DNA from: Microcaldota archaeon
GTDB lineage: Archaea; Micrarchaeota; Micrarchaeia; Anstonellales; Bilamarchaeaceae
Length of the DNA stretch: 13,207 nucleotides
Assembly: GCA_013331535.1 (NCBI GenBank)
Contig: DUGF01000106.1
Coordinates: 1 to 13,207 of the forward strand
Direction: 5' to 3'
Shown here: positions 1 to 11,888 of the stretch, in pieces
Position numbering within the stretch: the first letter of the stretch is position 1
How the letters are laid out: the number at the start of each line of letters is the position of its first letter
Made by a program: the position numbers and the translations under genes
Notes under the pieces: generated by a model
Seen by the model: the letters and a program-made list of their open reading frames with translations, nothing else
Database searches by the model: none
Told to the model about the DNA's origin: nothing

Positions 1-671
1 CTTTAGATTCCGGCTGCAAATCAATCTCTTTCACATACAACGAGCCGACAATTTTCACTGAATATGCGTTGGACATAATGAAAATCGGAAAGCGGGTCGG
101 TTTGCGGTTCATCTACGTTACAAACGGGTACGAATCGCGCGAGTGTTGGGACGCGCTTGCACCATATCTTACTGCTGCCAATATCGACCTGAAGGCATTC
201 AACCAGAATTTCTATGGAAAACTGTGCAAAGCGAATTTAGAACCCGTGAAGGAATCCATTCTTTATGTTAAAAAGAAATATCCGAAAATGTGGATTGAGA
301 TAACAACCCTTCTTGTTCCTGGCTGGAATGATGCCGAAAGTGAACTATTGGAAGAAACGAAATGGCTCGCGAAAATAGACAAGTTCATGCCCTGGCACGT
401 AACCGCTTTCCATCCTGACTATAAAATGCAGGATGTGGAACCAACAAAACCCGAGATGCTCATGCACGCCAGAGAAATCGGGCGCAGTGCGGGTCTAAAT
501 CATGTTTATTGCGGAAATCTTGGTTTCAGTTATTCAAATTACGAAACAACAGTATGTCCAAAATGCAAGAAAGAGTTAATAACCCGGGCTGGTTTTAGTA
601 TAACTAACAATAATATCATTGATGGAAAATGCAGATTCTGCAAGGAGAAAATTTCAGGAGTATGGATATAA
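1..671 (+). CDS. amrS: AmmeMemoRadiSam system radical SAM enzyme, 3' part
   Basis: This gene is cut by the left edge; the reading frame is open from base 3 and gives 222 visible residues to TAA at 669-671. It resembles the radical SAM protein of the AmmeMemoRadiSam system. The segment S-F-T-Y-N-E-P-T (about codons 9-16 of the visible part) and the V-T-N-G-Y strand match the radical SAM barrel of this family. Near the C-terminus, H-V-Y-C-G-N is followed by a CxxC...CxxC zinc-ribbon-like tail ending G-V-W-I, also typical. The CxxxCxxC motif that binds the 4Fe-4S cluster should lie left of the window, so catalytic competence cannot be judged. The family's reaction is not securely known. Memo follows 22 bp downstream on the same strand and AMMECR1 lies at 4104, so the classic trio is present. 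An internal ATG at 69 is not the true start because conserved residues precede it. Confidence 0.88.
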   Translation, partial: LDSGCKSISFTYNEPTIFTEYALDIMKIGKRVGLRFIYVTNGYESRECWDALAPYLTAANIDLKAFNQNFYGKLCKANLEPVKESILYVKKKYPKMWIEITTLLVPGWNDAESELLEETKWLAKIDKFMPWHVTAFHPDYKMQDVEPTKPEMLMHAREIGRSAGLNHVYCGNLGFSYSNYETTVCPKCKKELITRAGFSITNNNIIDGKCRFCKEKISGVWI

Positions 672-692
672 ATTTTTGGAGTATGGATATAA
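657..692 (+). repeat. 15-bp perfect direct repeat at the radical SAM stop and Memo leader
   Basis: GGAGTATGGATATAA occurs at 657-671, where it encodes the last four residues and stop of the radical SAM protein, and again at 678-692, immediately before the Memo ATG. The period is 21 bp, so both copies share the same frame. The second copy supplies the only GGAG upstream of Memo. It looks like a small tandem duplication that created or duplicated the translation signal; that origin is inference. Confidence 0.8.
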
Positions 693-693
693 C

Positions 694-1527
694 ATGAAGC
701 GCGAACAAGAAGATGTTATTCTGCGTCCTCCTGCAGTTGCCGGCATGTTTTACCCGGATGATCCGGAAGAACTTGAAGACATGATAAAAGGATTTGTGGA
801 AAGGGCAAAGGAAGAAACCATTCCCGGAACTCTTCGCGGGCTTGTTGTTCCGCACGCGGGTTATATCTATTCCGGGACAATTGCAGCCGTAGGGTATAAA
901 CTTCTTGCGCAGTATGCAAAACACGCGAAAAATATCTTTTTATTCGGTCCTTCCCATCATTCATACTTCAACGGGTTGGCCGAATCCGGAATGAATGTAT
1001 GGGAAACTCCTCTCGGAAGAGTTAACGCAAATCAAGCGCCAGAAAATCTCAAAAAAAGCAAATTGGTTTCACTAAATCCAGCAGCACATGCGCCAGAGCA
1101 TTGCCTTGAAGTGCAGTTGCCATTCCTTCAGACGATTCTCGGACGGAATTCTTTTTCAGTTATTCCGCTTCTTACCGGAGATGTTTCAGCCTCAACAGTG
1201 GCAAATGCAATTGAAGATGATTTTGACAAAGGCAGCGATTCGTTTTTCATTGCAAGCTCTGATCTGAGCCATTACAATCCTTACCAGCGGGCAGTGGAAC
1301 TGGATGGAATTGCGAACAAGGCAGTTCCGGCCCTTGACATACTCACAATGCAGGCACGCGGAGATGCGTGCGGAAAATCCGCAATTTTAATATTAATGTA
1401 CCTTGCAAAGCTAAAAGGATGGAAAGGAAAGTTTCTGGAATATAAAAATTCCGGGGATACGGCAGGGGATAAAATGCGCGTAGTTGGTTATGGCTGCTAT
1501 GCGTTTTACAGTTCCGAAGGGGACTGA
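694..1527 (+). CDS. amrB: AmmeMemoRadiSam system protein B (Memo family)
   Basis: A 277-residue Memo-like protein of the class III extradiol-dioxygenase fold, full length for the family. Visible conserved elements are R-P-P-A-V-A-G-x-F-Y-P near the N-terminus, P-H-A-G-Y (His54), G-P-S-H-H (His88/His89), E-H-x-x-E-V-Q-L-P-F-L (135-145), S-S-D-L-S-H-Y (188-194) and D-A-C-G-K (Cys226). His54, one of His88/89 and Cys226 correspond by eye to the metal-site residues described in human MEMO1. I chose the ATG at 694 because homology begins just after it. The upstream extension to 619 only re-reads the radical SAM gene in another frame. A GGAG at 678-681 is a somewhat distant ribosome site. It lies in a 15-bp direct repeat of the end of the preceding gene. 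The gene is probably co-transcribed with the radical SAM gene; the precise biochemical role is unknown. Confidence 0.93.
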   Translation: MKREQEDVILRPPAVAGMFYPDDPEELEDMIKGFVERAKEETIPGTLRGLVVPHAGYIYSGTIAAVGYKLLAQYAKHAKNIFLFGPSHHSYFNGLAESGMNVWETPLGRVNANQAPENLKKSKLVSLNPAAHAPEHCLEVQLPFLQTILGRNSFSVIPLLTGDVSASTVANAIEDDFDKGSDSFFIASSDLSHYNPYQRAVELDGIANKAVPALDILTMQARGDACGKSAILILMYLAKLKGWKGKFLEYKNSGDTAGDKMRVVGYGCYAFYSSEGD

Positions 1528-2439: not shown

Positions 2440-4008
2440 ATGTTTGACCCAGCATTAAGTAAAGCGTGGAAAGATGCCTGTAGAGTTCTGTTCGGTCAGG
2501 AGATAGGCGAACTTTCAGATTATAGTGATTGGCTTGCAGAAATGGTTGATGCCCCAATAGTAAAAAAATCAAGCATTTCTGGAAAAGAAGTTATTCATTC
2601 AAGGGCAGACTATTCTGAATCTGCCAGATCAATAAGTCTTGAAGAAATAGACATCGGAAAAAAATTTGAGCCGCTCAATATAAACGAAATAAAAGATATT
2701 GATAGTATAATCGAAGCAATTCAGGATAGAATTTTTTATACTGGAAATATTATACTTGGTAATTCAAAGGAAGTACAAAAAAGTTCGAATATCAATGACA
2801 GTTTTTACGTGTATAATACAACGCTTTCTGGGAATTCGAAATACATGGCTTTTTGCACCCTTGCCAGGTTAGACTCATATGGTTTTGGGGGCAATGCTTT
2901 CAGTCAATGCGATTTCTGCATCAAATGCCATGAACTTACGCGCGTAAAAAGATCATTTGAACTGTGGATGAGCCAGGATTGCTCTGATTGTTATTACTCG
3001 CATGGATTGAAGAACAGTTCAAATTGCTTTTTTTGTTTTAACCTGGACAATGCGCGGTACACTATAGGAAATTTACAATTGCCACCCGATAAGTATACTG
3101 AACTGAAAACCAAACTGGTTTCGGAAATGTTGGATGAGCTAAAACGTGAAAAAAGAGTGCCCTCTCTTACTGAGATCGTGCAGGATTGCGAGGGTAAGAT
3201 ACTTTTACCACCAAGTACTTCAAAAGTTGCAGTTAAGCAACCAGTCGACCAGAAAAAAATAGATGGGGAATTTGTCAAGACTTTTGAAATATTATTCAAA
3301 AAAAGACCATCAAAAAACATTGACGAATATGCACCTTGGTTGTCCAGGCATGTGAGAGGATTTGAAAGGTGTAAATCTGCAGCAAGTGGAAGCGACGTAT
3401 TTCTTGCAAGATATGGAAATTATTGCGATTTACCCAAGAATCGCCTTTTGACCTTAGATGAAGCAAAGGGAATTGGCCAGACTTTAAAACTAACTGCTGA
3501 AGAAGTAAACGGCATTAGTTTCAAAAACATCGGTAAGACCATCGGAAAGATCGCATTTTTCAATACAGATATTCAGGATGGGCAAAATGCAAATAATTTT
3601 GAGTGTACAATCACGATCGATGCATTTAACTGCCATAGATCAGTATGCAGTGTCTATTCCAAATTTTGCGCGTATTCTTTTTGGCCAAGGAGTTCACAAC
3701 ACATTTTTGGCGGAGATACTGTTTTTGATTCAGCCTTTTGTATCAATAGTTATAATTCAGTAAACCTCCAGAGATGTGTGGAAATGGACGGCTGCAATAG
3801 CTGTTCTGACTCTTATTTTTGCCACAATTGTGAAAATCTCCAGAATTCGATGTTCTGCTTCAATACAAAAAACAAAAGATACGCAATAGGCAATGCCGAA
3901 TTGGAACGAGAGAATTATACAAAAATAAAAGAGGGCATTCTGGAACAAATCTGCCAGGAACTCGAAAAGAGTGGAAAAAGTAAATATGATATTTTTAGTC
4001 TGGGATAA
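2440..4008 (+). CDS. Internally duplicated Cys-rich solenoid-like protein, function unknown
   Basis: A 522-residue protein built of two copies of one unit, about residues 8-250 and 278-510. Each unit begins with a helical part (Y-x-x-W-L, then L-x-x-x-E/D-A/I-x-x-I-G). It continues as a run of short strands rich in Cys, Ser, Asn and aromatics, reaches C-F-F-C-F-N or M-F-C-F-N, then R-Y-x-I-G-N-x-x-L and a helix. I count 24 Cys, clustered as C157-C160-C163, C181-C184, C196-C199 in unit one and C446-C452-C455-C461-C464-C473 in unit two. The strand-turn periodicity suggests a beta-solenoid and the Cys pairs suggest metal binding; both are inference. The closing segment resembles Cys-rich proteins in CPR/DPANN genomes that are often labelled CaiB/BaiF-like, a label I would not trust. 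There is no signal peptide or membrane segment. The ribosome site before the ATG at 2440 is weak. Confidence 0.8.
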   Translation: MFDPALSKAWKDACRVLFGQEIGELSDYSDWLAEMVDAPIVKKSSISGKEVIHSRADYSESARSISLEEIDIGKKFEPLNINEIKDIDSIIEAIQDRIFYTGNIILGNSKEVQKSSNINDSFYVYNTTLSGNSKYMAFCTLARLDSYGFGGNAFSQCDFCIKCHELTRVKRSFELWMSQDCSDCYYSHGLKNSSNCFFCFNLDNARYTIGNLQLPPDKYTELKTKLVSEMLDELKREKRVPSLTEIVQDCEGKILLPPSTSKVAVKQPVDQKKIDGEFVKTFEILFKKRPSKNIDEYAPWLSRHVRGFERCKSAASGSDVFLARYGNYCDLPKNRLLTLDEAKGIGQTLKLTAEEVNGISFKNIGKTIGKIAFFNTDIQDGQNANNFECTITIDAFNCHRSVCSVYSKFCAYSFWPRSSQHIFGGDTVFDSAFCINSYNSVNLQRCVEMDGCNSCSDSYFCHNCENLQNSMFCFNTKNKRYAIGNAELERENYTKIKEGILEQICQELEKSGKSKYDIFSLG

Positions 4009-4054: not shown

Positions 4055-4103
4055 AACGTAAGGAATTAAAGCAAGCACAGACTTTTCTTAATTGGTCGTG
4101 TAT

Positions 4104-4697
4104 ATGTCCGAATCAACTTTCACAAAACAGGAACGTGCGTTTCTTCTAAAGCTCGCACGCAGAACCATGGAGCATTACCTTAAAACAGGACGAAAGCTCG
4201 ATGTGAACCCGGGTGAGTTGCCATCTGCCAGAGTTATTGAGGACGGTGCCGCATTTGTTACCCTTTATATCGTTCGTGGAAAGAGCAAGCACCTGCGCGG
4301 TTGCATCGGAACCCTTGAGGCACGCAGACCGCTTGTGATGGACATAATAAACAACGCGATAAACGCTGCATTTGACGATCCGCGTTTCCCTCCCCTCAAA
4401 CGCGAAGAGCTGCCAAACGTAAGAATTGAAATCTCCATCCTTACCGAACCCAAGCCACTTAAAGTAATTGATAAGGACGACCTTCTCCGCAAACTGGTGC
4501 CGGGCAAGCATGGAGTGATAATCCAAAAAGGTTTTGCAAGGGCAACGTTTCTGCCAGTCGTATGGGAAGAGCTGAAGAAAAAAGAGGAATTCCTTACGCA
4601 TCTCTGCCAGAAGGCAGGGCTTTATCCAGACGAATGGAAGGACACAAGGGAAATGAGATTTTTTATCTACGAGGCAGAGAAGATTGAGGAAGATTAA
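4104..4697 (+). CDS. amrA: AmmeMemoRadiSam system protein A (AMMECR1 family)
   Basis: A 197-residue AMMECR1-domain protein, full length for the archaeal family. The hallmark L-R-G-C-I-G-T-L-E (about 68-76) is present, followed by N-A-I-N-A-A-F-D-D-P-R-F-P-P and E-I-S-I-L. The C-terminal part (F-L-P-V-V-W-E-E, Q-K-A-G-L) is also typical. The molecular function of AMMECR1 proteins is unresolved; the invariant L-R-G-C-I-G-T loop lines a cleft and is often taken as a functional site. I chose the ATG at 4104; a TTG at 4092 is in frame but adds only four residues. It lies on the same strand as the radical SAM and Memo genes but is separated from Memo by three other genes. A 19-bp stretch at 4087-4105 overlapping this start recurs upstream of the signal-peptidase-like gene. 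Confidence 0.93.
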   Translation: MSESTFTKQERAFLLKLARRTMEHYLKTGRKLDVNPGELPSARVIEDGAAFVTLYIVRGKSKHLRGCIGTLEARRPLVMDIINNAINAAFDDPRFPPLKREELPNVRIEISILTEPKPLKVIDKDDLLRKLVPGKHGVIIQKGFARATFLPVVWEELKKKEEFLTHLCQKAGLYPDEWKDTREMRFFIYEAEKIEED

Positions 4698-9757: not shown

Positions 9758-10333
9758 TTGAATCCTACGCATAATCGTGAATTGTATTTTGCCACAAGCA
9801 ATCCCCACAAATTCGGAGAGGCAAAGCCAATTCTTGCGGCCTCCGGCATAATTATACTTCACCTTCCATTTGTCCATGATGAAATCCGCTCGGATAGTCT
9901 AGAGGAAATCGCGCTTGAGGCTGTTTCCGTAGCATTCTCCAAGCTAAAAAAACCTGTTTTCGTCGAGGATACAGGTCTTTTCATTAATGCGCTGAATGGT
10001 TTTCCAGGAACATATTCTGCATGGGTTCAGAAGTAGATTGGAAATGAAGGGATTTTGCGCCTTCTCAGAGCAATTCCGCCTAAAGAGCGTTCTGCTGTTT
10101 TTCGCACAGCAATCGCTTACGCGGACAATGACGGAAAAACAAAAACATTCATAGGAGAGTGCGCAGGTTCTATCTCGCTAAAAATACGTGGAAAAGGCGG
10201 CTTTGGTTATGATTCCATCTTTATTCCGGATGGTCACACTGTTACATTTGCCGAAAACGTAAGTTTAAAAAACAACCTCTCACATAGATATAAATCCTTA
10301 CGGCTTTTTGCTGATTACTATTTATCTATGTGA
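9758..10333 (+). pseudogene. XTP/dITP pyrophosphatase (HAM1/RdgB) with an in-frame TAG
   Basis: The frame encodes a full-length non-canonical purine NTP pyrophosphatase, which hydrolyses XTP/dITP/ITP to the monophosphate and cleans the nucleotide pool. It is interrupted by one TAG at 10034-10036 (codon 93). Before it stand F-A-T-S-N-P-H-K-F (11-19, substrate-binding S/T-x-N-x-x-K), V-E-D-T-G-L (69-74, catalytic Asp) and G-F-P-G-T-Y-S. After it, in the same frame, stand I-G-N-E-G-I-L, G-G-F-G-Y-D-S-I-F and S-H-R. Methanogen homologues carry Thr at the interrupted position (V-Q-E-T-I-G-N-E-G, from memory). All else appears intact, so this is a very recent nonsense change, a sequencing error or read-through. 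The start is TTG at 9758, 4 nt after CAGGTGG (9747-9753); no ATG is available. It diverges from the helical-repeat gene by 49 bp. Confidence 0.88.
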
Positions 10334-10370: not shown

Positions 10371-10439
10371 ATGGCATGGAGGAAACCAAGTGGGTTTTCG
10401 ACAGATTTGAACCGTAGTTCAAATGGATGGAGAATTTGA
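10371..10439 (+). CDS. Possible 22-codon leader ORF before uS15
   Basis: ATG at 10371 follows AGGTG (10361-10365) by 5 nt, a better ribosome site than that of the uS15 gene itself. The ORF reads M-A-W-R-K-P-S-G-F-S-T-D and stops at TGA 10437-10439, 34 bp before the uS15 start. It contains a perfect 7-bp hairpin, TTTGAAC (10406-10412) and GTTCAAA (10417-10423), around CGTA. Either a translated leader peptide or chance; I do not recognise the peptide as a known small protein. Confidence 0.3.
   Translation: MAWRKPSGFSTDLNRSSNGWRI
10406..10423 (+). other. Perfect hairpin in the uS15 leader
   Basis: TTTGAAC and GTTCAAA form a 7-bp stem with a CGTA loop about 50 nt before the uS15 start. Ribosomal protein leaders often carry autoregulatory structures; bacterial S15 is a known example. 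Such a role here is inference. The stem shares the GTTCAAA core with the repeat upstream of ksgA. Confidence 0.5.
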
Positions 10440-10473
10440 AAAATTCGACAGTATAAAAATTCGGGGAATTTTT

Positions 10474-10929
10474 ATGGCACGATTACATTCAAAGAAGAAA
10501 GGGAAGGCCGGTACGAAGATGCCTAAGCAGAAGTCTGTACCAGAATGGGTATCGGTTTCTAAGGCAGATTTAACTGCATTGGTTGTAAAGATGGCGAAGG
10601 AGGGCGTTCCGCCTTCCAAAATAGGTCTGGCTCTGCGCGACTTAAAAGGTGTCCCGAGTATCCGAGCGATTACAGGAAGACGCATGTGTGATTTGCTTAG
10701 TGACGAAGGCGTTACATCCGAATATCCCGAAGATCTTATTGCTCTTATCAAAAAGGCAGTGAAAATACGCACCCATCTAAAGGATTCAACTGCTGATACT
10801 CACAATGCTGTCAAGCTTTCTCATGTGGAGTCCAAGATAAATCGTCTTGTAAAATACTATTCTCGCACAGGAAGAATTCCGAAGAACTGGAGATACTCCC
10901 CGGAAAAGGCGGCTTTGCTGGTTAAATGA
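10474..10929 (+). CDS. rps15: 30S ribosomal protein uS15
   Basis: A 151-residue small-subunit protein that binds the central domain of 16S rRNA. It has the archaeal/eukaryotic form: a basic start M-A-R-L-H-S-K-K-K-G-K-A-G, an extra N-terminal helical region and then the conserved S15 core. The core includes the D-T-H-N-A-V-K-L-S-H-V-E-S-K-I-N-R-L-V-K-Y-Y segment (about 109-130). Length is normal for archaea. I place the start at the ATG at 10474 because the M-A-R-x-H-S motif is the family N-terminus; the open frame from 10423 adds 17 unrelated residues. GGGG at 10463-10466 is a modest ribosome site. It precedes eS1 by 24 bp. Confidence 0.97.
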   Translation: MARLHSKKKGKAGTKMPKQKSVPEWVSVSKADLTALVVKMAKEGVPPSKIGLALRDLKGVPSIRAITGRRMCDLLSDEGVTSEYPEDLIALIKKAVKIRTHLKDSTADTHNAVKLSHVESKINRLVKYYSRTGRIPKNWRYSPEKAALLVK

Positions 10930-11564: not shown

Positions 11565-11888
11565 ATGCTTCCAAACACGGACCCAAAACAAATGGAGCGC
11601 ATGATGAAGCAGATGGGAATAAATTCAAGGCAGATTCCCGCGTCGCGCGTAGTTATAGAAACTGATTCCGAGAACCTTATTATTGAAAATCCACAAATTA
11701 CAGAAATTTCAATGCAGGGCCAAAAGTCTTATCAAATCGCCGGAACTATTCATTCCGAATCCCGTATAAGTGAAGAAGATATCAAAATGGTGATGGAGCA
11801 AGCGGGTGTTGATAAGGAAAAGGCCACAGAATCCCTGAAAAAATCAAAAGGGGATATTGCAGCAGCGATAATGGACCTGAAGCAGTAG
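11565..11888 (+). CDS. nac: Nascent polypeptide-associated complex protein (alpha-NAC)
   Basis: A 107-residue archaeal NAC, which forms a homodimer at the ribosomal tunnel exit and contacts emerging chains. The N-terminal M-E-R-M-M-K-Q-M-G-I is the ribosome-binding-type helix. The NAC beta domain spans about 28-64, including the Q-I-T-E-I-S-M-Q-G-Q-K-S-Y-Q-I-A-G pattern. The C-terminal UBA domain (about 69-105) ends K-G-D-I-A-A-A-I-M-D-L. It terminates at TAG (11886-11888) exactly where family members end. That matters for the amber codon in the pyrophosphatase gene: TAG appears to be used as a stop here. It follows eS1 by 20 bp. Confidence 0.96.
   Translation: MLPNTDPKQMERMMKQMGINSRQIPASRVVIETDSENLIIENPQITEISMQGQKSYQIAGTIHSESRISEEDIKMVMEQAGVDKEKATESLKKSKGDIAAAIMDLKQ

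Follow-up and report, generated by a model that had tools for sequence, protein, structure and literature searches.

Among the solved relatives of RdgB, the XTP/dITP pyrophosphatase of the RdgB/HAM1 family, are two pyrophosphatases from archaea, 1b78 and 1v7r. Some archaea decode UAG as pyrrolysine; among the literature titles listed, none concerned the lineage considered here. Nonsense mutations and consensus errors are ordinary occurrences in metagenome-assembled genomes (MAGs). In this study, we have analyzed a stretch of 13,207 nucleotides (the window) from a Micrarchaeota-related archaeon, in which an rdgB gene is split by one in-frame TAG, and we conclude that the TAG very probably reflects an isolated nonsense substitution, which replaced a Lys codon in a gene read with the standard code.

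An rdgB gene split by one TAG

The ORF at 9758-10036 of the + strand ends in the TAG, past which the same frame stays open to a TGA at 10331-10333, and the two pieces together make up an otherwise complete RdgB/HAM1 gene (9758-10333). The PF01725 match spans almost all of the gene and is shared by the two pieces in a complementary fashion (Table 1). The N-terminal part carries the SNxxK and EDTGLFI motifs, and the C-terminal part the FGYDSIFIP and SHR motifs. When the TAG is read through, the product exceeds the cut-offs of both NF011396 (203.3 bits against 203) and TIGR00042 (169.4 bits against 145.35), whereas each piece alone stays under the NCBIfam cut-offs (74.9 and 82.1 bits against the same 145.35 for TIGR00042); as assembled, the gene yields no uninterrupted product that reaches them. 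The gene is a member of the RdgB/HAM1 family, yet it is broken as assembled.

Table 1. Features of the window bearing on the interrupted gene, and further genes of the window
Feature	Position	Strand	Basis
AmmeMemoRadiSam system: radical SAM enzyme, protein B; protein A further on	3..1527 and 4092..4697	+	
Asparaginase-like protein, N-terminal domain only, stop TAA	1533..2111	+	PF00710 positions 2-160 of 193
Cys-rich protein, 522 residues, two similar halves by eye	2440..4008	+	
rdgB, N-terminal part, 92 codons, TTG start	9758..10033	+	PF01725 positions 1-86 of 186, E 4.2e-19
In-frame TAG; Lys here in the homologues listed	10034..10036	+	Sequence and homologue comparison
rdgB, C-terminal part, 98 codons, then TGA	10037..10333	+	PF01725 positions 96-185 of 186, E 4.7e-23
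Ribosomal protein S15, conserved neighbor downstream of rdgB; true start probably further in	10423..10929	+	PF08069 and PF00312
NAC-domain protein, stop TAG	11565..11888	+	PF01849 and PF19026, matched to residue 105 of 107

The surroundings of the gene are normal: ribosomal proteins S15 and S3Ae accompany rdgB in 37 of 44 loci from relatives, duplicates included. Elsewhere in the window, the asparaginase-like protein is perhaps a stand-alone domain, and the Cys-rich protein, for which no Pfam or NCBIfam match was found, is one of a large family, of which 977 proteins were found and in which many of the named members among the 120 matches listed come from Micrarchaeota; some contigs, to judge by their lengths, may hold two copies.

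A near-identical intact protein and the residue at the site

The best match in a large protein database, P0001, is a full-length protein of 191 residues with Lys at the position of the TAG and is otherwise the same as the product of the window, except for how the TTG start is written. No second lesion was seen when all other residues of the product were compared with P0001. The initial annotation, which had described an amber codon in an otherwise intact pyrophosphatase gene free of further damage, is borne out on both counts, by the ORFs and PF01725 halves on the one hand and by P0001 on the other. The source of P0001 is displayed as '-', the mark used for the window's own proteins, although the letters of the window differ at the site; the protein may come from the same population or from a sister strain. 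Its cluster comprises four member sequences from two contigs of up to 13,155 bases (the contig of the window measures 13,853 in the genome analyzed), and is drawn at 90% identity, so that Lys need not hold in all four members.

A truncated form of the protein was sought in the same database, and no near-identical fragment was found (of 7 candidates, 5 matched, the top one with 71% identity). This leaves the amber allele without an independent sighting and leans slightly toward an error, although truncated fragments may be hidden inside the P0001 cluster, in which case clustering could explain their absence. For the Cys-rich protein of the window, too, there is a record with 100% identity; its cluster, likewise drawn at 90% identity, spans six contigs of up to 27,911 bases, which implies that further public assemblies cover the same or a close organism.

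Lys occupies the TAG column in all 120 homologues listed of the 514 found in the protein database. Among the 44 loci of relatives, at least five contigs of which appear twice under whole-genome and genome_contigs identifiers, 34 have Lys in the same column and 8 have Thr, while Arg and Gln occur once each; the eight loci with Thr are all distant, at most 51% identical to P0001. Thr is likewise found in this column in chains of 1b78 and of 2e5x (PH1917). The Thr that the initial annotation had expected here is therefore the residue of more distant archaea, and the 120 homologues listed correct it to Lys for this lineage. The nearest named rdgB records come from assemblies of Candidatus Micrarchaeota and Candidatus ainarchaeum; the best six of 15 share 57-60% protein identity with the product, and records of the own genome may be missing from this list.

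The genome that carries the window comprises 1,180,144 bases in 109 contigs, is 84.17% complete and holds one rdgB match. Across the 40 genomes searched, this one included, rdgB was found in 35, and an internal stop occurs in this genome only; the comparison with related genomes that the initial annotation had proposed yields 34 other genomes with rdgB and an internal stop in none of them. The remaining five genomes lack a match at an E-value of 0.001 or better. Of the 40, 17 are of good quality (completeness of 90% or more, contamination of 5% or less), and these include three of the five. Loss of the gene is tolerated within the order.

TAG and tRNAs in the genome

The NAC-domain gene ends with TAG where its family ends, as had been pointed out before and as the Pfam match confirms, so TAG works as a stop within the window. 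TAG had also been called rare among stops, and this holds for the window (one of the 18 gene ends listed) but not for the genome: in a sample of 20 stretches (244,199 bases), from which ORFs were taken mechanically (the longest that do not overlap, 100 codons or more), so that some are not genes, 234 ORFs end with TAA in 107 cases, TGA in 79 and TAG in 48. In-frame extensions of at least 60 codons follow 4 of 48 TAG ends, 15 of 105 TAA ends and 4 of 79 TGA ends, and hidden coding sequence is thus no commoner behind TAG than behind the other stops. The longest of the TAG extensions turned out to be an MFS gene of its own that follows pheT, the last Pfam domain of which reaches residue 540 of 542; the pieces downstream of the other three TAG-ended ORFs gave no Pfam match, which is neutral evidence. 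The release factor aRF1 is intact (448.2 bits, the cut-off being 234.7).

The sample was also compared with relatives on two scales. The first comparison, against ORF products from 44 loci of relatives (233,416 bases, antisense ORFs counted too), gave 41 matches spanning the TAG of rdgB, duplicate loci included; in each of the 41, 7 or more of 25 residues are identical on either side. Eighteen minus-strand stops on one stretch (L071), lying opposite rdgB and its neighbors, were taken for artefacts of antisense ORFs and set aside. In the wider comparison (112 loci, 995,649 bases, 1009 ORFs), an antisense ORF took the place of the rdgB matches; rdgB is for this reason absent from the resulting list, which is headed by three antisense stops from that place. 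Homology to relatives covers 85,457 bases of the sample, in which no other convincing internal stop was seen; seven weak cases have poor identity on one side, of which two are TAG (L077 and L081), and one of the seven lies in the antisense rdgB stretch. Counting TAG codons inside conserved families, another check that had been proposed, leaves rdgB as the only convincingly interrupted gene and two weak TAG cases beside it.

Matches to the tRNA model RF00005 number 17 at E up to 10, with five over the cut-off. At these 17 tRNA-like loci, ARAGORN made 3 calls without introns, one with an unresolved anticodon, and 11 calls with introns allowed, none of which has a CUA anticodon in what is a partial tRNA set; the 6 tRNAs called across the 20 stretches of the sample belong to the same 11. 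Such a set is plainly incomplete for a genome that is 84% complete, and a suppressor may have been missed.

The tRNA genes of this genome seem to be rich in introns and hard to detect (for example at L074, L076, L078 and L081). Introns of 15 to 164 bases occur in 10 of the 11 ARAGORN calls, and the five matches over the cut-off are all that RF00005 gives in 1.18 Mb. Some calls may be spurious, as the reading at L032 changed with the intron option.

Explanations of the TAG and known counterparts

Genome-wide recoding of amber codons, by pyrrolysine or otherwise, had been raised as a possibility, and we consider it extremely improbable. All that speaks for it is the open frame on both sides of the TAG; 19 of 21 genomes do have weak matches to the PylS profile with E-values up to 0.001, but far under the cut-off. 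The search for pylS that had been suggested put none of the 21 genomes, this one included, over the TIGR02367 cut-off, and the weak match in our genome (22 bits against 178.15, at C46:1179-1442) lies inside pheT; among the controls, 1 of 14 scored over this cut-off and 13 of 14 had some match. TAG is an ordinary stop in the sample, aRF1 is intact and the near-identical copy has Lys at the site; RdgB, moreover, is not known as a pyrrolysine protein. We rejected pyrrolysine on the basis of PylS, stop usage, extension lengths, Pfam matches on TAG-ended ORFs and the proteins of relatives. Occasional suppression or natural readthrough, in which a mutant or near-cognate tRNA would preserve some enzyme, had been listed too, and we now grade it as very unlikely. 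In its favor, the tRNA genes here are hard to read, with 5 of 17 RF00005 matches over the cut-off; against it, the 11 ARAGORN calls include no CUA anticodon. Very unlikely too is a polymorphic amber allele of rdgB at the level of strains that would be maintained in the population and partly suppressed by an unusual, unrecognized intron-bearing tRNA, leaving a low level of enzyme.

We expect instead that one nonsense substitution turned the Lys codon of rdgB into TAG; the change would belong to the assembled strain as a very recent allele, or it would be an error of consensus or sequencing. The initial annotation had named both a fresh mutation and a sequencing error, and both still stand, with a near-identical intact protein in public records. 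That the allele is real, and rdgB a fresh pseudogene of the assembled strain, we judge to have an even chance, since the gene is unmatched in 5 of 40 genomes, so that its loss is tolerated, and since the near-identical intact version suggests a polymorphic population; the lack of a second lesion and of a second sighting of the amber form speaks against it. If the cell does carry the TAG, translation would yield 92 residues and stop short of the FGYD and SHR motifs, and the truncated RdgB, deprived of both, would be expected to lose its enzyme activity. That no cell has the TAG and that the rdgB of the organism is intact, the codon being an error of consensus or sequencing, we rate somewhat below an even chance; the public protein, intact and identical elsewhere, agrees with it, as do the lack of an independent copy of the amber form in the protein database and the freedom of rdgB from other decay. 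Against such an error, about 85 kb with homology shows no other convincing interruption (seven weak cases aside), which indicates that the assembly is not rich in errors of this kind.

The analysis removes one candidate for stop-codon recoding from an uncultured archaeal lineage, which carries little weight in itself. For a single in-frame stop in a MAG, near-identical public sequences should be compared before recoding is proposed.

Compared with the RdgB/HAM1 family as described by PF01725, TIGR00042 and NF011396, the gene of the window agrees in the matches of both pieces, in a read-through product over the cut-offs and in its S15/S3Ae context, and differs in the one TAG that interrupts it, no other of the 35 genomes with a match having an internal stop. 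With archaeal pyrrolysine decoding it has an in-frame UAG in common, and differs in the lack of a PylS over the cut-off among the genomes searched, in the use of TAG as a stop and in the Lys of the near-identical copy. From ordinary nonsense mutations and consensus errors in MAGs we saw no difference: the traits expected of a fresh allele or a consensus error, a single lesion and an intact near-identical copy elsewhere, are both present, and the TAG in rdgB is an ordinary case.
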